A stretch of 50,179 nucleotides of DNA from Gammaproteobacteria bacterium (GTDB lineage Bacteria; Pseudomonadota; Gammaproteobacteria; Xanthomonadales; SZUA-5): the NCBI GenBank assembly GCA_030430155.1, contig JAUIFV010000010.1, forward strand, positions 1-50,179. Direction: 5' to 3'. Made by a program: the position numbers and the translations under genes. How positions within the stretch are numbered: position 1 is the stretch's first letter; each line of letters begins with the position of its first letter. Below the pieces are notes generated by a model. It saw only the letters and a program-made list of their open reading frames with translations. It made no database searches and was not told the origin of the DNA. Positions 1 through 50,179 of this stretch are shown here, one piece after another.

Positions 1-322
1 CCCCGTAGGTCGGAACGCAGCGTATCGCCAGCAGGCTGGCTCCCACAGAAAGCCAGTGCGGGTCGCGAATTGGGAATCGCGTCGCTCCTGTGTATGAGCC
101 TGCCCGCAGGCAGATCGGATCTGCCGGCCTACCGAGAAGACCCGTAGGTCGGAACGCAACGTATCGCCAGCAGGCTGGCTCCCACAGGAAATCCAGAGCG
201 GGTCGCGAATTGGGAATCGCGTCGCTCTCGTGTTGGAGCCTGCCTGCAGGCGATCGGATCTGCCGGCCTACCGAAAAGACCCCGTAGGTCGGAACGCAGC
301 GTATCGCCTGCAGGCTGGCTCC
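1..322. repeat. Tandem ~139-bp REP-like repeat, 2.3 copies
   Basis: The motif CCCGTAGGTCGGAACGCA recurs at 2, 141 and 281, a period of 139-140 bp. Each unit holds a GCCAGCAGGCTGGC palindrome and, in the first two copies, a second palindromic half (GAGCCTGCC...CAGGC) followed by GGATCTGCCGGCCTACCG. The third copy stops after its first palindrome, near 322. Short reading frames across it are repeat artefacts. Dispersed palindromic repeats of this look (GTAGGTCGGAACGCAGCGTATCGCC) are common in Lysobacterales genomes from general knowledge. The element may continue left of the window. Confidence 0.8.
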
Positions 323-519
323 GGAGGCAGCTTCGACATCGCTGTCCAGGCATCGGGCAGTCGCGCTGCCTACCACTCGAGGACGCACGGCCCGCCTGCC
401 TAGAAACCAGTCTGTTCACCCGGCTTGGTTCCGCGACTGATCTACTGCAGCCGTGTTGTCTGGCCATTCACCCCGCTATCCCGCACCATTCCCGCAGTCC
501 CCCAGTCTCCGCTCAGTCA
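323..519 (+). other. Upstream region of the PRPP synthetase gene
   Basis: No convincing gene lies here. The stretch is pyrimidine-rich (CCCGCAGTCCCCCAGTCTCC near 494-512) and must contain the promoter of the next gene, but I see no clear -35/-10 pair. There is no good Shine-Dalgarno sequence directly before the ATG at 520. Confidence 0.4.
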
Positions 520-1470
520 ATGCCAACGCCCGTTTACTTCACTTTCGACCCAAACCTGGGCCCCAAGATCGCCGTTGCCCTTGACCTGCCCATCGCCAAG
601 CACGAGGAAACGGTCTACGAAGATGGCGAGCACCGCACCCGCGCGCTAGAAGGCGTAACCGGCCGACATTGCTTGGTGGTCGATTCGCTGTATGCCGAGC
701 CCAGCCTGAGTGCCGACCGCAAGCTGCTGAGGATGACCTTCTTCGTCGGCGCGTTGAAGGCGGCCGGCGCGGCGCGGGTAAGCGTGGTGGCGCCGTATCT
801 GTGCTATTCGCGCAAGGATAGGCGCGGTGCCGTCGGTGACCCGGTGATCACCCGCCATCTGGCGCAGATCCTTGAGGCGGTGGGCGCCGATCAGATGCTG
901 ACCCTGGACGTACACAACCTGGCTTCGTTCGAGAATGCCTTCCGCATTCCCGCCGACAACATCGAAGGGCAATCGCTTTTCGTCGACTATTTGGCGCCCA
1001 AGCTGGCCGAGGCCAAGGTGGTGGTGGTTTCGCCGGATGCTGGGGGGATCAAACGCGCCGAGACTTTCCGATCCGCTCTGGAGCAGGCCCTGGGGCGGCC
1101 GGTGGAGCGGGCGATCATGGAGAAGCTGCGCGGTCCGGACGGCGTGCGCGGTGACCTGCTGGTCGGTCCGGTAGAGGGCCGGGTGGCGGTGTTGATCGAT
1201 GATCTGATCAACACCGGTGGCACCCTGGCGCGGGCGGCCAAGGCCTGCCGCGCGCACGGCGCCAGCGAAGTCTATGCAATGGCCACGCACGGGCTATTTG
1301 TGGCGCCGGCCGGCGACGCCTTGGGCGGGGCGGACATCAGCGAGCTCGTGGTCAGCGACTCGGTGCCGCCGTTTCGGCTCAGCGGCACGCCAGCGCATGG
1401 CAAGCTGCGCGTGCTGGAGTGCGCCAAGCTGCTCGCGCAGGCGATCGCGCAGCGCTGCGGTCTGGGCTAG
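520..1470 (+). CDS. prs: Ribose-phosphate pyrophosphokinase (PRPP synthetase), divergent
   Basis: It probably makes PRPP from ribose 5-phosphate and ATP for nucleotide, tryptophan and histidine synthesis. The 316-residue length is normal for the family. Visible motifs are YEDGEHRTR (33-41), YSRKDR (96-101, usual YARQDR), DVHN (130-133, usual DLHA), SPDAGG (171-176) and the PRPP-binding loop VLIDDLINTGGTL (224-236). The flexible catalytic-loop segment, normally close to KRRP, reads EKLRGPDG (201-208), so this is a divergent member, possibly a second copy besides a canonical prs elsewhere. The stop codon lies inside the left inverted repeat of the MITE-like element at 1467-1770. The family call is firm; paralogue status is inference. 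Confidence 0.85.
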   Translation: MPTPVYFTFDPNLGPKIAVALDLPIAKHEETVYEDGEHRTRALEGVTGRHCLVVDSLYAEPSLSADRKLLRMTFFVGALKAAGAARVSVVAPYLCYSRKDRRGAVGDPVITRHLAQILEAVGADQMLTLDVHNLASFENAFRIPADNIEGQSLFVDYLAPKLAEAKVVVVSPDAGGIKRAETFRSALEQALGRPVERAIMEKLRGPDGVRGDLLVGPVEGRVAVLIDDLINTGGTLARAAKACRAHGASEVYAMATHGLFVAPAGDALGGADISELVVSDSVPPFRLSGTPAHGKLRVLECAKLLAQAIAQRCGLG

Positions 1471-1770
1471 GGACTCCCTGAGCAATGCACGCGAGCCGCG
1501 TTGCGAGTCCAGCGTCTGCCCCCGTTACCAACAAGCGGGGGCGCAGTCCCGAAAGGCATAGTCACTCTATGCCCGAGGGCTGCAACGCCGCATCAGTCGC
1601 TGGGCCTCGAGAACTAACGGGACAGCACCTGAGAAGTCCGCCAGCTGCGTTGGACGTCTTGCCCTTGAGCGCAGACTATGCCCTGCGACGCCCGCCTTAC
1701 AGGCGACCCCAACCTTGCTGAGACATGGAGGTACTGTCGCGGCCGCGTGCATGGCTCAGGGAGTCCCTAG
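1467..1770. mobile_element. MITE-like element with 27-bp terminal inverted repeats
   Basis: The left end 1467-1493 (starting CTAGGGACTCCCTGAGC) and right end 1744-1770 (ending GCTCAGGGAGTCCCTAG) are reverse complements with one mismatch in 27. Inside are local hairpins: GCCCCCG with CGGGGGC around 1517-1541, and GGCATAG with CTATGCC near 1556-1574. The second arm is echoed again near 1675-1685. No transposase is encoded. The outermost CTAG on both sides could be a target duplication. The element supplies the prs stop codon and fills most of the prs-ribF gap. Confidence 0.7.
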
Positions 1771-1833
1771 AGCAAGTCCGCGACACTTTGCCCGCTATAC
1801 TCGCGCGCCCGACCGGCCAGACCCAATTCGTTC

Positions 1834-2763
1834 ATGAGCACCACGGTTCATCGCCATTTGCAGCAGCCGCCTCTCAGCGATCGTGGCTGCGTACTGACCA
1901 TGGGCGCCTTCGACGGTCTGCACCTGGGTCATCAGGCGCTGATCAAGGCGGTGGTGGCGCAGGCCAAGGCGGCTGATCTGGACTCCTGCGTGGTGACCTT
2001 CACACCGCCGCCGCGGGCGCTGTTCCAGCCGGCGCAGACCCTGCAGCTGATGGCGCTGCATGATCGTCTGGCTGGAATGGCGGATCTGGGCGTGGACCGG
2101 GTCCTGCTGCTGCGGTTCGACCACGCACTCGCGGCGATGTCGGCCAGCACCTTTGCCGCGGCCCTGCAGCGCCGTACCGGTGCCGTGCAGGCCCTGTTCG
2201 GACCCGGCTTTCGCTTCGGCCGCCAGCGCGCCGGCGATCTGCAGACCCTGCGCGAGGCCGGCATTGCCGCCGAAGAGGTGGTTCCGCTGCTCGAGGGCCT
2301 TGAGCCGATCAGCAGCTCGCGAGTGCGCGCGGCGCTGATTGCCGGTGACTTCGAACAGGCACAGCAGCTGCTGGGCCGCCCCTACGCCTTTTCCGGCAAG
2401 GTGGTGCGTGGCAAGCAGCTGGGGCGCAAGCTGGGCTTTCCCACCGCCAATCTGCGCTGGCCATCGCAGACCATGCAGTTTTCCGGCATCTACTCGGTTT
2501 GGGTGCACGGCGCCGGTCTGCAGCAGCACCCCAGCGTGGCCAGTCTGGGCATGCGACCCACCGTTGGCGGAACTGAGCCGCTGTTGGAAGCGCATTTGTT
2601 CGATTTCGCCGGCGATCTCTATGGGCAGCGCCTCACAGTGGAATTCGTTGCCAAGCAGCGCGACGAATGGCACCTTGACGGGCTGGACGCGCTGAAAGCA
2701 CAAATTGAAAAGGACGCGGTAGAGGCCAGGCAGCGCCTGGCCGCGGCAAGGAGCAAGCAATGA
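1834..2763 (+). CDS. ribF: Bifunctional riboflavin kinase / FAD synthetase RibF
   Basis: It converts riboflavin to FMN and FMN to FAD in the cytoplasm. The 309-residue length matches the family. The N-terminal nucleotidyltransferase has [12 protein letters not shown] (about 23-34), a variant of the usual GxFDGxHxGHQ, and [16 protein letters not shown] (about 158-173). The C-terminal kinase has [11 protein letters not shown] (about 197-207) and GMRPTVGG (about 238-245). It overlaps ileS by ATGA, and the ileS ribosome site (AAGGAG, about 2748-2753) lies within its end. This ribF-ileS-lspA order is widespread in gammaproteobacteria. Confidence 0.96.
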
Positions 2764-5612
2764 GCGGCGATGACGCCACCGGTAAGGACTACAAGCACAC
2801 CATCACTTTGCCGCGCACCGAGTTTCCGATGCGCGGTGATCTGCCCAAGCGCGAGCCGGCGATGCTGGAGCGCTGGGAAGAGCAGGGGCTGTATGAGCAG
2901 CTGCAGGCGAACGCCGAGGGTCGTCCGCGCTTCGTACTGCACGACGGGCCGCCGTATGCCAACGGCGAGATCCACATCGGCCACGCGCTGAACAAGATTC
3001 TCAAGGACATCGTGGTCAAGTCGCGCCTGCTGGCCGGCTTCCAGGCGCCCTATGTGCCGGGCTGGGACTGCCACGGACTGCCGATTGAGCTGCAGGTGGA
3101 GAAGAAGCTGGGCAAGGTCGGGGTCAAGGTGGACGCCGCCGAGTTCCGTCGCGCATGCCGTCAGTATGCTGGCGAACAGATCGACACCCAGCGCCGCGAC
3201 TTCAAGCGCCTGGGCGTGCTGGGCGCCTGGGAACAGCCCTACGAGACCCGTAGCTTCGGCTATGAGGCCGACATGCTGCGCTCGCTGGCGCGCATCGTCG
3301 AGAACGGCCATCTACGCCGCGGCGCCAAGCCGGTGCACTGGTGTTTTGACTGCGGTTCGGCGCTGGCCGAGGCCGAAATCGAATACATGGACAAGGTTTC
3401 GCCGTCCATCGACGTCAGCTTCGCGGTGGCCGACAGCGCTGATGCCGCCAAGCGGCTGGGATTGACCGACGACGGTGCGCGCTACGCGGTGCCGATCTGG
3501 ACCACCACCCCGTGGACGCTGCCGGCCAATCTGGCCGTGGCCCTGCACCCCGAACTGGACTACGTGGTGGTGCAGATCACCGATCCGGCCGGACAGCCGC
3601 TGCGTTTGATCCTGGCCGAAGGGCTGGCCGAAAGCGCGCTGGCCCGCTACGGACAAGCCGGTGCCGAGCCCATCGCCACGGTCAAGGGCGCGGCGCTGGA
3701 GCATCTGCAGCTGCGCCATCCCTTCTACGATCGCGCCTCGCCGGTGATCCTTGGCGAGCACGTCACCCTGGAAGCTGGTACCGGCGCCGTGCATACCGCG
3801 CCCGGTCACGGTCAGGAGGACTTCGAGGTCGGCCAGCAATACGGTCTGGAGGTGCTCAACCCGGTCGCCGGCAACGGCACCTTCGTGCCCGGCACCGAGC
3901 TGTTCGAGGGGCTGCACATCTGGAAGGCCAACGACGCCATCGTCGAGGTGCTGCGCGAGCGCGGCGTGCTGCTGGCCCACGATTCCTACCCGCACAGCTA
4001 CCCGCACTGCTGGCGACACAAGTCGCCGGTGGCCTTCCGCGCCACCCCGCAGTGGTTCATCGGCATGGAGGAGGCCAACCTGCGCGCCGACGCGCTGGAT
4101 GCCATCGGCAAGGTGCGCTGGGTGCCCGGCTGGGGCGAGCGGCGGATCCGGGCGATGATCGAAAACCGTCCGGACTGGTGTATCTCCAGACAGCGCACCT
4201 GGGGCGTACCGATCGCCCTGTTCATCGACAAGCACAGTGGCGAACCGCATCCGGACAGCCCGCGGCTGATGCGCGAGGTGGCCGATCGGGTTGCGCAAGG
4301 CGGCGCCGACGTCTGGTATGACCTGGATCCGGCCGAGCTGTTGGGCGCGCAGGCCGAGCAGTACGAGAAGGTCACCGACATCCTCGATGTCTGGTTCGAT
4401 TCGGGCGTTTCCCACGCCTGCGTGCTGGAAGCCGATCCGAGCTTGGGTGTACCCGCCGATCTGTATCTGGAGGGCTCCGACCAGCATCGCGGCTGGTTCC
4501 AGTCGGCCCTGCTAACCGGGGTCGCGATGCGTCAGGCGGCGCCCTACAAGCAGGTACTCACCCACGGCTTCACCGTCGATGCGGCTGGCCGCAAGATGAG
4601 CAAGTCGCTGGGCAACGTGGTCGCCCCGCAGAAGGTGATGAGCACGCTGGGCGCCGACATCCTGCGCCTGTGGGTCTCGGCCACCGACTACCGCAACGAG
4701 ATGAGCGTCTCTGACGAGATCTTGAAGCGGGTCGCCGACGCCTACCGCCGCATTCGCAACACCTGTCGTTTTCTGCTCGCCAATCTGGACGGATTTGATC
4801 CGGAGCAGCACCAGCTCAGCACCGAGCAATTGCTGCCTTTGGATCGCTGGGTGCTGGATCGCGCCTATCGCATTCAGGCGCAGGTCTGTGCGGCCTACGA
4901 CGACTACCAGTTCAACACCGTCTACCAGGAGATGCACAACTTCTGCAGCGTCGATCTGGGCAGCTTCTACCTGGACGTGATCAAGGACCGCATGTACACC
5001 CTGCAGGTCGATGCACCTGCGCGGCGTTCGGCGCAAACGGTGATGTATCACGTGCTCGAAGCGCTGGTCCGCTGGATGGCGCCGATTCTGTCCTTCACCG
5101 CCGAAGAGATCTGGGGCTATCTGCCCGGCAAGCGCAATCCCAGCGTGTTGTTTGAAACCTGGTACGAGGGCCTGCAGCCTGTCGCCGAAGACGCGGTGCT
5201 CAGTGCCGATCTGGTCGCTCAGCTGCGCGAACTGCGTGACGCCGTCGCACAGGTGCTGGAGCCGATGCGTCAGGTCAGCAAGGTGATCGGCTCCAATCTG
5301 GATGCCAAGGTGACCCTGGCGGTGCCGGCAGCGGTGCACGCCGCGCTGCAGCCCTGTTTGGCCGAGCTGCGTTTCCCCTTCCTGGTCAGCGATCTGGAGC
5401 TGGTGGTGCTGGACGCCGAATCGGCCGGACAGCGGGTGCAGGTCGAAGGCGTGGGCGAGGTCGCTATCGACGCAGGCCGCAGCGGTGCAGAGAAGTGCGT
5501 GCGCTGCTGGCATCGCCGCGACGACGTCGGTCAGCACGCCGAGCATCCCACGCTGTGCGGGCGCTGCATTGAGAACGTCGACGGCGCCGGCGAAAGCCGC
5601 CAGTGGTTCTAG
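2760..5612 (+). CDS. ileS: Isoleucyl-tRNA synthetase
   Basis: It charges tRNA-Ile with isoleucine and edits valine. At 950 residues it is full-length for the bacterial type. The class I signatures are HIGH at 72-75 (within [16 protein letters not shown]) and KMSKS at about 612-616. The CP1 editing domain lies between them, with [10 protein letters not shown] and [16 protein letters not shown] visible. The C-terminus holds a four-cysteine zinc knuckle (CVRC...CGRC, about 913-937). Its start overlaps the ribF stop as ATGA, which suggests translational coupling. Confidence 0.98.
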
Positions 5613-42418: not shown

Positions 42419-43249
42419 ATGAATAGTAAGAAATTTTTGATGGGAGCCGCTGTCAGCGCGGCGCTTTTGCTTGCTGCGCCGATGGCTTCCGCCTGCGCAC
42501 TCACCGCGTGGTCTACCGCTAACGGCACGCCGATCGCCGGTCAGCCCAACGACGCAACCCCGGTTGCACGTTATTCTGGCGTCTGCGGCATGCAGGCTGA
42601 TGCCATTGGGGACTTCGTGGTCGACGAAACCCCGGCAGGTGAACAGTCGTTCAATGCTCAGTTCTATTACTACACCGGTGATCGCGCCGGTAACGCCGAC
42701 GTATACCAAGCGCGCAGCGCATCGGGCGGGACCAATCTGCCGATCCGCGTGCAGCACGACGGTACCAACCTGATCTTCAGCACCAACGGCAGCGCCACCA
42801 CTCGTACGGTTGCTGTAACCGACAATCGCTGGTACGCGATCAGCCTGCAGTGGCTCGCTGGTGCCGGTACCGGTAGCCTGACGATCTCGGTGATCGGTGC
42901 GGGCAGTGACACCCCCCTGAATACCCCCGCCATCACTGGCGTGAGCAATGGTAGTGACACCATCGAAGAAGCGCGTCTCGGTCTGGTTGCCGGAACCAAC
43001 ACTTCTGGCGTGGCGACTTTCGACGCTTACGACTCCCGTCGCACCACGGTGCCGGCACGTCTTTGCCGTTGCGATTCCAACAATAGCGGTTCCATCAGTG
43101 TGGCCGATGCCGTTCAAGCGCTGAACGAGTTCATCAACGGAACTCTGGCAACCGGTCAGCCCGATTGTAATGAGGGCGGTACCGTGACCGTCGCCGATGG
43201 CGTCGGTGCGCTGAACATCTTCATCAACAACGGCGGCGTTTGCCCCTAA
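42419..43249 (+). CDS. Exported protein with C-terminal dockerin-like module
   Basis: A 276-residue secreted protein. The signal peptide (MNSKKFLMGAAVSAALLLAAPMASA) is followed by a ~180-residue beta-rich domain (QSFNAQFYYYTGD, WYAISLQWLAGAGTGSLTISV, EARLGLVAGTN) that resembles a concanavalin-like jelly roll, though I cannot name its ligand. The C-terminus has two calcium-loop repeats, DSNNSGSISVADAVQALNEF and DCNEGGTVTVADGVGALNIF, with Asp1, Asn3 and Asp12 of the EF-hand-like loop in both. This duplicated loop-helix layout is that of type I dockerins. The ATG at 42419 has GAGG upstream. It is followed 23 bp later by a cohesin-like gene, the expected binding partner. Confidence 0.78.
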   Translation: MNSKKFLMGAAVSAALLLAAPMASACALTAWSTANGTPIAGQPNDATPVARYSGVCGMQADAIGDFVVDETPAGEQSFNAQFYYYTGDRAGNADVYQARSASGGTNLPIRVQHDGTNLIFSTNGSATTRTVAVTDNRWYAISLQWLAGAGTGSLTISVIGAGSDTPLNTPAITGVSNGSDTIEEARLGLVAGTNTSGVATFDAYDSRRTTVPARLCRCDSNNSGSISVADAVQALNEFINGTLATGQPDCNEGGTVTVADGVGALNIFINNGGVCP

Positions 43250-43272: not shown

Positions 43273-43707
43273 ATGAAAAGGTTTATTGGAGCAGCATTCG
43301 TCGCTACCGCCGCATTGCTTTCCGCTAATTCGGCCGTTGCGCAGGATCAGGTTCTACTCAGTTCCGCCGGTTCGAAGTCGGGTTCGGCCATCAGTATTGA
43401 TCTGATGACCTCCGGCAGCGCTGTCGGTTTCAACTTCATCATCAACGTGCCCGCTGACGTGGAAGTGGATACCTCGGCTTGCCTGAAGTATCTGCCCAAG
43501 TCCTTCACGGGCCGTTGCGCATTCAAGGACAGCGAAGTCCGCGTGATCGCATTCAGCGAGCAAAACGTTGCCATGAAGGCCGGTGCGAATCAGATCGGTT
43601 TGATTCGACTCTTTGGTCTGAACGACGCGAAGGCACTGCAGGTGCGCAACGTCGAGATCGTGAATTCGGAAGCCAAGTCCATTTCGGACAAGGCGCTGAT
43701 TCAGTAA
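43273..43707 (+). CDS. Small secreted cohesin-like protein
   Basis: A 144-residue protein with signal peptide (MKRFIGAAFVATAALLSANSAVA). The ~120-residue mature part follows the cohesin strand order: SGSAISIDLMTSGSAVGFNFIINVP (like the IPV...GISSFDFTLSYDP opening of cohesins), SEVRVIAFSEQNVAMKAGANQIGLIRLFGL (like the FLF...ATIVFKV block) and a closing VRNVEIVNSEAKS. Only one domain is present and there is no anchor. Two cysteines (about 74 and 85) could form a disulphide. It has a strong GGAGGATT site and lies between the dockerin-like gene and the first scaffold-like gene. The cohesin call rests on pattern only. Confidence 0.6.
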   Translation: MKRFIGAAFVATAALLSANSAVAQDQVLLSSAGSKSGSAISIDLMTSGSAVGFNFIINVPADVEVDTSACLKYLPKSFTGRCAFKDSEVRVIAFSEQNVAMKAGANQIGLIRLFGLNDAKALQVRNVEIVNSEAKSISDKALIQ

Positions 43708-43749: not shown

Positions 43750-45423
43750 ATGTCTAATAAAAGCAGAATGTTCATGGCCGTGTCGGGTGCGCTGCTGTTC
43801 AGCAGCGCACTCAGCGCGCAAACCATAACCATTGGTACTGCCAATGTTTCCACCGGCGCCACCAGCGCCATGGTGCCGGTGACCTTTACCGCGTCGGGTG
43901 CGAATCCTGTCGCTGGATACGCCGCCACCTTCAGCTTCACGCGTGATCCTGCTGTTGCCGCCATGGGCATGGTGACGGCATCCAATGTCGACGGTTCCTG
44001 CGGCGGTCCTGGCGTTACCACGCCCACCGGAACCACGATCAACGTCGGCGATTTGGACTTGGGCTTGGCGGCTCTTCCGTCCGGAACGACCTGCAACCTG
44101 ACCTTCCCGCTGGAGCCTGGCGCTGCTGCGGGTAATTACCCGTTGATGGTGACCTTTGAAGAGTTCACCGACACGGGCGGCAACCCGACCACCGGTACTA
44201 CCGTTCCTGGCGCAATCATCATCTCTGCCGGCCCGGTCGATACCCCGCCGACCATCGCCTACAACCCGACGACCGGTAGCACGGTGTCCCTTCCCGGCGG
44301 TGCCGGCACCATCGTCGCCACCCCGTCCGGCGGCATGGGTACGGGTGCTGCCGCGACCACCACGGTTAATGGCTGTGCCATCGGTAGCGTTTCTGGTCCG
44401 GGCACCTTCGGCTCGGTTGCTGGCGTCAGCCTGAGCTTCGTCGGTAACACCACCACCCCGCAGAACATCAACCTGTCCTGCACCCAGGGTGGGATGGTCA
44501 CCACTGGTACGCTTACTTGTAATGAAACTCGCGGGGCGATGGCACCAACCGTCCGTTCCTGGCCGCTGAGCTGTCCGGCCGGTGCTGCTGGTACCCCGCC
44601 GACGCTGAACTACGTGCCGGCTCCGGGTAGCAACGTGACCTTCGTCGGTGCGCCTGGCACCATGATCATGTCCACCATCGCCGTCACCGGCACTGGTGGT
44701 ACAGGCTCCGGCGCTTCGGCTACCGCCCGCGTCTCTGACTGCCAGATCTCGCCGGCTCTGAGCCCGCCGGTCTTCGCCTGTCAGCCGTCTGGTGGCAACG
44801 TTCTGGACTTCACCCCTGGCGGTGCCGATCCGGGCGACATCACCTGCAGCTGCGACGCGCCGTCCACTGGCCAGCTGACTGCCAACCTGACCTGCGAAGA
44901 GACCCGTCCGCTGGGTACCACCCCGGTGGTGCGTCAGTGGAGCCTGACCTGCCCGGGCACCCCCGGCAGCTGTGGCACTCTGGTCTTCAGCCCGAACCCG
45001 GGTCTGATCCAGTTCACCGGTGGCACGGCCTCCATTGGTATCTCCCACACGGGCGGCACCATGGGTAACGACACCACCTTCAACGGTTGCGGTATCACCG
45101 GCGCCAACGCCAGCAACTTCCAGATCTCCAACGCCCCGATCAACTTCTCCTTCACTGGCGGAAGCACGGGCTCTGGTCAGATCGATCTAGCGTGCACCAA
45201 CAGCACCACCGCTCCGGTGCAGGCGACCCTGTCCTGCTCGCAGGTCTGCGACGTGAACAACACGCCGCGCACCTGGACCCTGGAATGCCCGGCCGGCGGC
45301 ACCCCGCCCCCGACCGCCGAGGTGGTTCCGGTTCCGAGCAGCAGCGATTTCTCCCGCATCCTGCTCGCAGCGATGCTGGTGCTGATCGGCATGGCCGCCG
45401 TCACCATCCGCGGCCGCAGCTAA
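43750..45423 (+). CDS. Surface protein: cohesin-like domain, three Ig-like repeats, sorting signal
   Basis: A 557-residue exported protein. Order: signal peptide (1-23, ending ALSA); cohesin-like domain (about 24-160) with SAMVPVTFTASGANPVAGYAATFSF and CNLTFPLEPGAAAGNYPLMVTFEEF; then three repeats of ~110 residues (about 167-277, 281-400, 404-518). Each repeat has an aromatic-x-P opening (YNPTTGS, YVPAPGS, FSPNPG), Gly/Thr-rich strands and closing cysteine motifs such as L-T-C-x-E-T and W-x-L-x-CP. The C-terminus VPVPSSSDFSRILLAAMLVLIGMAAVTIRGRS-like tail (526-557) is tripartite: Pro/Ser motif, one hydrophobic helix, basic end, similar to IPTL/PEP-CTERM sorting signals. ATG 43750 follows GGAG. 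A strong terminator follows. Confidence 0.75.
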   Translation: MSNKSRMFMAVSGALLFSSALSAQTITIGTANVSTGATSAMVPVTFTASGANPVAGYAATFSFTRDPAVAAMGMVTASNVDGSCGGPGVTTPTGTTINVGDLDLGLAALPSGTTCNLTFPLEPGAAAGNYPLMVTFEEFTDTGGNPTTGTTVPGAIIISAGPVDTPPTIAYNPTTGSTVSLPGGAGTIVATPSGGMGTGAAATTTVNGCAIGSVSGPGTFGSVAGVSLSFVGNTTTPQNINLSCTQGGMVTTGTLTCNETRGAMAPTVRSWPLSCPAGAAGTPPTLNYVPAPGSNVTFVGAPGTMIMSTIAVTGTGGTGSGASATARVSDCQISPALSPPVFACQPSGGNVLDFTPGGADPGDITCSCDAPSTGQLTANLTCEETRPLGTTPVVRQWSLTCPGTPGSCGTLVFSPNPGLIQFTGGTASIGISHTGGTMGNDTTFNGCGITGANASNFQISNAPINFSFTGGSTGSGQIDLACTNSTTAPVQATLSCSQVCDVNNTPRTWTLECPAGGTPPPTAEVVPVPSSSDFSRILLAAMLVLIGMAAVTIRGRS

Positions 45424-45446
45424 TCTCCGGCTACATCGGTAGATGA

Positions 45447-45477
45447 GAAAGGGCGCCTTCGGGCGCCCTTTCTTTTT
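45447..45477 (+). terminator. Rho-independent terminator after first scaffold-like gene
   Basis: GAAAGGGCGCC pairs with GGCGCCCTTTC across a TTCG loop (45447-45472), followed by TTTTTG. It is duplicated with the gene end at 47479. Confidence 0.95.
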
Positions 45478-45778
45478 GCCCCAACTCAGAAGTGGAACAG
45501 GATTCTTAGGCCGAATTCGGCATCGGGATCAGGCACCTAGCTGGCAACACCCCAGCAAAAGGGGGGCGAGAGCAGTACAAGCTATCCCATAAGGATTACC
45601 CGTAGGTATGAATGATTGAAGAATGACCTTTAGTCTGAGCGCAATTTTCCATTGCAAACCTGTTGCGTCATGGGTGAGATCCCATCACGCTCAGCTGGCG
45701 CTGCGCCCGGCCCGCTGCTTCGTTCCGCCCTTTGTCAAAATTCTGCGGGTCTCGCAACCGTTGATGAGAAAAATCAAT
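45478..45778 (+). other. 301-bp leader between the two paralogues
   Basis: It must hold the promoter of the second paralogue since a strong terminator precedes it. Local features are GCAAAAGGGGGGCGAGAGC (about 45554-45572) and an AT-richer patch around 45584-45640. I see no confident -35/-10 pair or riboswitch motif. The in-frame extension of the next gene to 45623 is basic and lacks a signal peptide, so I treat it as non-coding. Confidence 0.4.
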
Positions 45779-47455
45779 ATGCCCCTACTTTCCAAAACCC
45801 GTGACAAAACCGCCCTAATAGTTGGTGTAATGTTGTGCAACGTCGTTCAAGCGCAGACCCTCACCATTGGAACTGGTGTTGTCAATCAAGGCGACGAAAG
45901 CGTTGAAATTCCGGTGAGCTTTGATGCGACTGGTACGCCTGTTGGATCTTACTCACTCAGTTTCACGTTCGAGCGCCCTCCAGCTGCGCCTTCTGGGCTG
46001 GTCAGTTTTGTCACCGGTAAGGCAAGCTGTGGTGGCCCTGCAACCATCGACGCAACAGCCACTGCGCTGAACGTTGGGGCATTCGACCCGAAACTCGGTC
46101 CATTGCCCACAGCCTTGGCTTGTACTTTTGCCATTCCGCTAGACTCGACCGCATCAGTTGGTAGCTATCCGTTTGAGGTTACGTTCTCGGAGTTTGGCGA
46201 CTTAACCGGACTAGGTACTGTTCAGGGCACCATCGTTGCTGGAGGTATTGTCATTCAGCCCCGACCGAATGACATACCACCTGCGCTTGCTTACAACCCC
46301 ACCACTGCTAGCACCGTCGTCCTCGAAAGTGGCGCCGGAAGCATCGAGGCCACCCCCTTTGGCGGTATGGGATCCGGCGCTGCGGCGACTACCGCGATTA
46401 ACGGTTGTGCCATCGGCGGTGTCTCCGGCCCAGGTACTTTCGGCTCGGTCGCTGGCGTCAACCTGACCTTTGTCGGCAACACCACCTCCCCGCAGAGCAT
46501 CAACTTGTCCTGCACCCTGGGTGATGCAGTAACGACCGGAACGCTGACCTGCAACGAAACTGCTGGCAGTGGACCTCCGCTTGTTCGTTCCTGGTCGTTG
46601 ACCTGCCCGTCAAGCTCTCTCGGCGTCCCTCCAAATCTGACATATGTGCCCAGCTTTGGCAGCAATGTAAGTTTCATTGGTACTCCCGGAACCCAAATAA
46701 TCTCCACCATCTCTGTCATTGGAATAAGCGGAACCGGTTCCGGTGGATCGGCCACCGCGCGCGTTTCCGACTGCCAGGTCTCCCCGGCTCTGAGCCCGCC
46801 GGTCTTCGCCTGCCAGCCGTCTGGTGGTAACGTTCTGGACTTCACCCCCGGTGGTGCGGATCCGGGCGACATCACCTGCAGCTGCGAAGCGCCGTCCACT
46901 GGCCAGCTGACTGCCAACCTGACCTGTGAAGAGACCCGCCCGTTGGGTACCACTCCGGTGGTGCGTCAGTGGAGCCTGACCTGCCCGGGTACCCCCGGCA
47001 GCTGCGGCACCCTGGTCTTCAGCCCGAACCCGGGCCTGATCCAGTTCACCGGCGGCACGGCTTCCATCGGCATCTCCCACACGGGCGGCACCATGGGTAA
47101 CGACACCACCTTCAACGGTTGCGGTATCACCGGCGCCAACGCCAGCAACTTCCAGATCTCCAACGCTCCGATCAACTTCTCCTTCACCGGCGGAAGCACG
47201 GGCTCTGGTCAGATCGATCTGGCGTGCACCAACAGCACCACCGCTCCGGTGCAGGCGACCCTGTCCTGCTCGCAGGTCTGCGACGTGAACAACACGCCGC
47301 GCACCTGGACTCTGGAATGCCCGGCCGGTGGCACCCCGCCCCCGACCGCTGAGGTGGTTCCGGTCCCGAGCAGCAGCGATTTCTCCCGCATCCTGCTCGC
47401 AGCGATGCTGGTGCTGATCGGCATGGCCGCCGTCACCATCCGCGGCCGCAGCTAG
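45779..47455 (+). CDS. Paralogous surface protein: cohesin-like domain, Ig-like repeats, sorting signal
   Basis: A 558-residue paralogue of the preceding protein, collinear throughout. The signal peptide (TALIVGVMLCNVVQA) precedes a cohesin-like domain (SVEIPVSFDATGTPVGSYSLSFTFE; ACTFAIPLDSTASVGSYPFEVTFSEF) that differs much from the first copy. The middle repeats are moderately diverged. The last 230 residues, from VSDCQ to the end, differ from the first copy at two positions only (I to V, D to E). This mosaic suggests duplication followed by gene conversion of the 3' part. I chose ATG 45779; ATG 45764 is possible. It has its own copy of the terminator. Confidence 0.75.
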   Translation: MPLLSKTRDKTALIVGVMLCNVVQAQTLTIGTGVVNQGDESVEIPVSFDATGTPVGSYSLSFTFERPPAAPSGLVSFVTGKASCGGPATIDATATALNVGAFDPKLGPLPTALACTFAIPLDSTASVGSYPFEVTFSEFGDLTGLGTVQGTIVAGGIVIQPRPNDIPPALAYNPTTASTVVLESGAGSIEATPFGGMGSGAAATTAINGCAIGGVSGPGTFGSVAGVNLTFVGNTTSPQSINLSCTLGDAVTTGTLTCNETAGSGPPLVRSWSLTCPSSSLGVPPNLTYVPSFGSNVSFIGTPGTQIISTISVIGISGTGSGGSATARVSDCQVSPALSPPVFACQPSGGNVLDFTPGGADPGDITCSCEAPSTGQLTANLTCEETRPLGTTPVVRQWSLTCPGTPGSCGTLVFSPNPGLIQFTGGTASIGISHTGGTMGNDTTFNGCGITGANASNFQISNAPINFSFTGGSTGSGQIDLACTNSTTAPVQATLSCSQVCDVNNTPRTWTLECPAGGTPPPTAEVVPVPSSSDFSRILLAAMLVLIGMAAVTIRGRS

Positions 47456-47478
47456 TCTCCGGTTACATCGGTAGATGA

Positions 47479-47509
47479 GAAAGGGCGCCTTCGGGCGCCC
47501 TTTCTTTTT
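47479..47509 (+). terminator. Rho-independent terminator after second scaffold-like gene
   Basis: Same structure as the one at 45447: GAAAGGGCGCC / TTCG / GGCGCCCTTTC (47479-47504) then TTTTTG. Confidence 0.95.
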
Positions 47510-47800
47510 GCTTGCAGCTCACGCCTAGGTCGGGCGCTTCATCAGTGAGTGCAGCGGATTCGGGGTGTCTTGCCAGGATTGAGCGACTCATGCGGTCGCA
47601 ACAAGGCGCGGTTTGCAAGAAGCCCTGGAGTGAAGGCCCTGGACCGCGGGCATCCTGCCCGCATGCCTTTTGCTCCTGATGCCGCTTCCAAAGCGCTGCT
47701 CGACCAGGGCGGAGCCGCGCCAATCGGATGACTTCCACCCGAACATTGGCGATCATGTGCCCATCCAGGCGCAAGCCACCCGTATCCCTAACGAGTTTCC
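47510..47800 (+). other. Intergenic region with a dispersed hairpin repeat
   Basis: 291 bp between the second paralogue and the DUF2058 gene. GCGGGCA TCC TGCCCGC (47646-47662) is a perfect 7-bp stem; sequences like CCGCGGGCATCCTGCCCGCATG are dispersed repeats in Xanthomonad genomes from general knowledge. Short frames on either strand have no recognisable product. Confidence 0.5.
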
Positions 47801-49510: not shown

Positions 49511-50179
49511 TCAGTTGCAAACCCCCTGATACACACACCCCACCCACTGCGGGTAGTCGACAAACGGATTGCGATTGCCCTGATAGGTCTGAATCAGGTC
49601 GTTGCGCAGCCGTTCGGCTTCGTCCACGGGGTCCTCGCTGTGCCACTGCAGCAGGGTGCTGAGTCGGCCCATGTAGGCGACCGAGGCGTTGCTGCCGGTT
49701 TGGGTGATTTGCGACAGATTGTCGGTGAGACGCAAATCGGGTTCGGCGGCGCCGCTGCCGCCATGGATGCCGCCTTCGAAGCGGATGTCCATGTAGAACA
49801 TGGCGCGCGCAACGTTGCCTTTGACCCCGCGCCAGACCTGGAACACGCTGCCGTTGGTCCAGTTGGAGTTGCCCGGGTAGTTGCCGCTGCCGCCGCCGAC
49901 GCCGTTGTGGTTTTGCGTGGGGTACTCGCTGCAGCCGCTGGGGCAGTTGTCGTAGATCTTGTTGCCGCGGGCGCTGTTGTAGCTGATGTCCGACAGCATC
50001 AGCATGTGCGCGTCGGTGTAGGCGTAGTTGGTGCCGCCATCGGACGGGAAGCCGAGAGAGTTGGGCCAGGTGTGCTCGCGGTTGTAGTTGTTGTTGCCGC
50101 CGTTGGACTTGGCATAGCTGGCGTTCTTGTAGATGTCCAGTATCCGACTGCTGTTGAGCGGGTCCTGATCAGCCTGATT
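49511..50179 (-). CDS. Endonuclease I family extracellular nuclease (5' end outside window)
   Basis: The frame is open to the right-hand edge, so at least 222 C-terminal residues are present and the N-terminus (probably a signal peptide) is missing. The beta-beta-alpha-metal catalytic block NREHTWPNSLGF, then DAHMLMLSD and ARGNKIY, identify the endonuclease I family (E. coli EndA, Vibrio Dns). FQVWRGVKGNVARAMFYMDIRFEG and LLQWHSEDPVDEAERLRNDLIQTYQGNRNPFVDYP are the later conserved blocks. Several cysteines (CPSGC, CVYQGVC) suggest disulphides. Such enzymes are exported and degrade DNA non-specifically. Confidence 0.93.
   Translation of the reverse strand, partial: NQADQDPLNSSRILDIYKNASYAKSNGGNNNYNREHTWPNSLGFPSDGGTNYAYTDAHMLMLSDISYNSARGNKIYDNCPSGCSEYPTQNHNGVGGGSGNYPGNSNWTNGSVFQVWRGVKGNVARAMFYMDIRFEGGIHGGSGAAEPDLRLTDNLSQITQTGSNASVAYMGRLSTLLQWHSEDPVDEAERLRNDLIQTYQGNRNPFVDYPQWVGCVYQGVCN

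Follow-up and report, generated by a model that had tools for sequence, protein, structure and literature searches.

How can two neighbouring genes encode strongly diverged N-terminal domains and end in almost the same DNA, terminator included? The question is raised by cA and cB, tandem paralogues that lie side by side in the window (the whole 50,179-nucleotide stretch of DNA analyzed here), with cB being 74% identical to cA over the length of cB. Their products are probably surface proteins of a little-studied protein family. The features of the locus are collected in Table 1, and we consider it very likely that the near-identical block arose by ectopic gene conversion from one paralogue to the other.

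Table 1. Features of the cA/cB locus, with positions counted from the first base of the window
Feature	Position	Strand	Basis and remarks
Dockerin-like C-terminus gene	42419..43249	+	Profile of 7 orthologues versus solved dockerin chains
Small neighbour gene, signal-like N-terminus	43273..43707	+	With dockerin-like and anchored genes in relatives too
cA	43750..45423	+	557 aa; signal-like N-terminus, cohesin-like domain, three modules, C-terminal hydrophobic anchor; open frame, translation, domain alignments
Cohesin-like N-terminal domain, cA	43816..44235	+	Profile search; its profile reaches solved scaffoldin/cohesin chains
cA module 1	44242..44580	+	Module alignment
cA module 2	44593..44958	+	Module alignment; near-identical block starts within module 2
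Near-identical block, cA copy	44716..45479	+	Left edge 44716-44738
cA module 3	44968..45297	+	Predicted PapD/ASH-like beta-sandwich
cA C-terminal hydrophobic helix and basic tail, IPTL-CTERM-like	45340..45420	+	Model helix 531-556; relatives' weak TIGR04174 matches
Terminator-like hairpin, cA	45445..45474	+	Same as cB hairpin; not listed by terminator scan
cB, tandem paralogue of cA	45779..47455	+	Open frame; start codon uncertain: 45623, 45764 or 45779
Cohesin-like N-terminal domain, cB	45851..46270	+	Profile search
Near-identical block, cB copy	46748..47511	+	Offset 2032 from cA copy
Terminator-like hairpin, cB	47477..47506	+	Terminator scan

At an offset of 2032 bases, cA and cB match at 54 to 60 of 60 bases per segment from 44720 to 45439, versus 12 to 53 of 60 bases in the segments from 44060 to 44719. 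The maximum-likelihood edges of the block fall at 44716 (range, 44716 to 44738) and 45479 (range, 45478 to 45479), with the right edge lying immediately 3′ of the terminator. An earlier sequence-only reading had placed a near base-for-base match at 44737 to 45480, and the match holds, with the coordinates off by 1 base on the right and within about 20 bases on the left; over the 744 bases of this span the copies differ at 30, one of which is base 45480. The same reading counted 230 shared residues with two differences, which is exactly what codons 328 to 557 carry, and its strongly diverged N-terminal domains are borne out by an identity of 40% over residues 1 to 155. Sliding-window identity rises sharply at 44716 to 44738, and no even divergence is observed along the genes. 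Within the block, transitions account for 28 of the 31 differences and codon position 3 for 27 of the 29 coding ones; the copies share no exact stretch longer than 95 bases. A plasmid search with the block as query gave no match, and a promoter scan found 0 promoters (1.5 expected by chance).

With respect to synonymous divergence along both genes, which the same reading had proposed as a check, dS between cA and cB falls at the edge from 1.60 (residues 156 to 323) to 0.17 (residues 328 to 557, the block). The comparison with G001, a metagenome-assembled Lysobacterales bacterium of the same genus with one cA/cB-like gene at the locus, indicates to which branches this drop belongs. The synonymous branches of cA and cB drop about tenfold across the edge (0.46 to 0.05 and 1.15 to 0.12, respectively), whereas the G001 branch stays level (0.30 and 0.32); since this outside branch is unchanged, the fall must be ascribed to cA and cB. 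For five neighbouring genes compared with their G001 orthologues (the dockerin-like gene being left out of this set), dS is 0.54 to 2.23, in every case higher than the 0.17 of the block.

Trees of the two ends of the gene are in conflict. In the N-terminal domain tree of nine sequences, cB groups with G001 (support, 100) and a grouping of cA with cB is rejected (AU P = 0.0055), while the nine-sequence block tree unites cA and cB (support, 99; alternatives, P of about 4e-5), so that the paralogues are each other's nearest relatives, to the exclusion of the orthologue, in the block only and not in the N-terminal domain. Between these ends, the trees of modules 1 and 2a do not decide between cA with cB and cB with G001, module 2a disfavours cA with G001 (AU P = 0.003), and module 1 of G001 has an identity of 0.855 to cA versus 0.736. 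Four-sequence trees likewise reject other groupings in the block but resolve the front part weakly, and the nine-sequence trees do so better. The trees did not include the second gene of the relative G004, the gene of the relative G003, whose contig opens within a repeat array, or the fragments G001:C611 and G004:C271. A GENECONV-like permutation test on 179 silent variable sites singles out cA-cB (P = 0.0002; best fragment, 45066 to 45402), with the other five of the six pairs at P values of 0.29 to 0.88. When all 779 variable sites are used, 0 of 5,000 shuffles reach the observed value for cA-cB and likewise for cC-G001 (cC being the third paralogue, on contig C202 and 63% identical), and cA-G001 gives P = 0.019. 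The patches that the all-site test also flags in these last two pairs indicate uneven rates along the gene, which makes the silent-site test the one to trust.

These results allow the other explanations to be weighed. If strong protein and codon selection kept stalk and anchor alike with no recombination, few residue changes would be no surprise, and indeed all but 2 of the 29 coding differences in the block leave the residue unchanged; a block dS below the upstream dS in all pairs with cC points the same way. Nevertheless, selection alone cannot account for the shared synonymous bases, since the synonymous branch of G001 is not shorter in the block, and codon constraint as the whole cause is ruled out by this same branch. 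Further evidence against it comes from module 3, where 34 informative sites unite cA and cB versus 2 and 0 for the other two groupings, and from the block tree with its rejection of every grouping other than cA with cB. We regard selection without recombination as extremely improbable, and consider that selection on the protein probably acts as well. Of the two causes named in the sequence-only reading, gene conversion is thus supported, given the abrupt fall in synonymous divergence, the conflicting trees and the run test on silent sites, and selection on stalk and anchor is not upheld as the sole cause. An assembly artefact, in which the second copy of the block would be a draft-genome error, comes to mind for a genome in 287 contigs, but the copies differ at too many places for this to be at all probable: besides the 31 differences and the short exact stretches, both frames are open, and errors would not respect codon position 3.

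A sharp edge and conflicting trees would also be produced by a recent tandem duplication of the whole gene, followed by replacement of the front of one copy from a diverged allele of another lineage, and the unusually low third-position GC of the cB front (0.49 to 0.65) would suit such an import. This history predicts even divergence within the block, and instead we find a modest step, with 22 differences in 307 bases on the left versus 7 in 381 on the right (P = 0.039 with the split point searched over; no split in four other pairs, P = 0.55 to 0.88). Moreover, the cB head groups with the G001 gene of the same locus, as a resident copy should; the cA head would therefore have to be the import, and the base composition of cA is ordinary. 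We consider duplication with an imported head unlikely.

Under gene conversion, the preferred reading, the front parts of cA and cB would be old, with the N-terminal domain of cA lying outside the cB and G001 pair. After the split from the G001 lineage, homologous recombination would have copied the last ~235 codons of one gene, along with its terminator, over those of the other; the right end of the tract would be set by the end of homology and its left end by the point beyond which cA and cB are much less alike. The donor was probably cA and the recipient cB, a direction suggested mainly by base composition: third-position GC in cB is 0.49, 0.65 and 0.54 in the front segments versus 0.76, 0.89 and 0.88 in the block segments, and in cA it ranges from 0.70 to 0.90 along the gene. 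However, cC and G001 too show a rise, though a milder one, toward the 3′ end. From codon 324 onward, G001 shares the base of cA at 18 of the 31 coding differences, that of cB at 9 and neither at 4. More than one exchange between cA and cB is plausible given the step within the block. As a separate observation, third-position GC over the cB front (45779 to 46747) is 0.49 to 0.65 versus 0.70 to 0.75 in cA, which may reflect relaxed codon use or foreign origin.

The terminator hairpin is identical in cA and cB, in agreement with the earlier claim that even the terminator is copied; the terminator scan gave the cB copy only, because its T-run rule excluded the cA tail. An almost identical hairpin and T run follow the single gene of G001, so the terminator is part of the homologous unit. 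Identity simply extends as far as homology does, and separate copying of the terminator need not be assumed. The shared block had also been expected to make the locus prone to collapse into a single chimeric gene. We did not find the predicted chimera: a simple deletion between the blocks would leave a cA-type N-terminus, and the N-terminal domain of the single G001 gene is of the cB type, so that an origin of this gene by such a deletion is not supported.

As for the proteins, the N-terminal domain of cA and cB is, as judged from profiles, a remote relative of cohesin, and the description of it as cohesin-like holds on that basis. Searched against the PDB up to an E-value of 10, its profile gives four matches, all of them scaffoldin/cohesin chains, with one significant E-value (4.5e-4) and the others at 0.23 to 0.4. 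The Pfam Cohesin model (PF00963) matches four of eight family members (best E, 2.3e-5), cA not being among them, and full-length cA and cB match no Pfam family. Three cohesin-like N-terminal domains are present in the genome. Modules 1 to 3 align with one another and have cysteines in common; the module profile gave nothing convincing against PDB and Pfam. The stalk is predicted to consist of Ig-like modules, with module 3 modelled (pLDDT, 87.4) as a beta-sandwich whose best structural match is of the PapD/ASH kind (Z, 11.1; rmsd, 2.3; 101 aligned). The full-length AlphaFold model of cA has a mean pLDDT of 49.1 and its Foldseek matches were set aside; the C-terminal helix is present in this otherwise poor model.

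The tail of cA and cB appears to resemble IPTL-CTERM, though it fails the TIGR04174 model: cA gives no match up to an E-value of 10, and cA, cB and cC are absent from the 13 TIGR04174 matches in the genome. A G004 relative scores 12.7 bits, below the cut-off of 20.5, and four other places in the window's genome pass the cut-off. Exosortase H (TIGR04177) is encoded in the window's genome (172.4 bits versus a cut-off of 86); of the 9 genomes in the family, 7 have a match above this value, and the remaining two are 77% and 80% complete. We infer that both proteins would be exported and held at the surface via the common stalk and C-terminal anchor, and that the diverged cohesin-like heads may differ in what they bind; possible partners are proteins with a dockerin, among them the product of the dockerin-like gene two genes upstream of cA.

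The C-terminus of that product, searched as a profile of 7 orthologues, reaches solved dockerin chains with a best E-value of 0.0018. Dockerin_1 (PF00404) matches five of six orthologues, all below the cut-off; in the window's genome it gives nothing over the cut-off and does not find this gene. A search of the genome with the profile of the dockerin-like gene itself gave no other convincing candidate. The protein also has a conserved front domain of ~210 residues, present in seven orthologues and with no Pfam match over the cut-off. The small neighbour was considered as a cohesin and rejected, there being no cohesin among its four PDB matches (best E, 0.22). At the end of the window, an open-ended frame on the minus strand (49511 to 50179) resembles, we assume, an endonuclease I family protein.

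Across relatives, matches were found in 16 of 101 genomes, and the family to which the window belongs had matches in 8 of its 9 genomes (G002, 80% complete, is the one without), and an even draw from the order gave matches in 18 of 398 genomes. Gene order is kept in G001, including the dockerin-like gene, the small gene, the one cA/cB-like gene and a 191-residue gene; we take the outer genes of this order to be purF and a ferritin-like gene upstream and alr after the 191-residue gene. Dockerin-like, small and anchored genes also occur as a trio in five of six other relatives' loci examined (G004 to G008), the sixth (G003) beginning inside its repeat array. One anchored gene is seen at the locus except in G004, from another genus, where a further tandem pair occupies this position, with 79.5% DNA identity over 694 bases. 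The second G004 gene repeats cohesin-like and module units and its contig ends inside the gene; a separate G004 contig starts with a tail and terminator that are 87% identical over 523 bases to those of the first gene (the G004 contigs concerned are C117 and C271). In G003, a 357-base module is repeated in tandem 8.6 times (90% match) within the anchored gene (3 to 3088 on G003:C49), with the contig starting inside this array.

The cA/cB pair adds an example from a different protein family to a known pattern in which heads follow the gene and tails follow the genome. The 3′ segments of Helicobacter pylori homA/homB and babA/babB are described as following the genome and the 5′ segments as following the gene (PMC2795765). 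As with cA/cB, these are paralogous surface-protein genes with 3′ concerted evolution by gene conversion; they rest on 24 strains with both genes, whereas cA/cB rests on one genome and one same-genus relative, and cA/cB differs in its unrelated protein family, its tandem arrangement and the inclusion of the terminator. There is also a likeness to prokaryotic genes, tuf for example, that undergo recurrent whole-gene concerted evolution, in that the copies within one genome resemble each other more than they resemble their orthologues; those cases are near full length and long lasting (PMC6053082), whereas cA/cB is homogenised over the last 40% only. Non-cellulosomal cohesin-dockerin systems likewise have both domains on neighbouring, probably exported proteins and a C-terminal sorting enzyme in the genome (PMC5244752), and exosortase, cohesin and dockerin are treated together in one paper on methanotrophic archaea; unlike those systems, the present one combines a single dockerin-like gene with three N-terminal domains of the cohesin-like kind, in Lysobacterales and with exosortase H. 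The dockerin-like/cohesin-like cluster itself was not met in the literature searched, a search short of a full survey.

Synonymous sites and trees agree here on a clean natural case of conversion limited to the 3′ part of a gene, and a whole-gene tree of the cA/cB family would therefore mix two histories. It is possible, if rather doubtful, that the locus is a small surface-display system with varied binding heads, two partner specificities and anchoring by exosortase H, in which recurrent conversion would renew stalk and anchor for one export route, in a Lysobacterales family that also has tandem module expansion (G003) and a second tandem pair (G004). The three-gene cluster with its dockerin-like and cohesin-like parts is kept across this family, and its function is open to simple binding assays.
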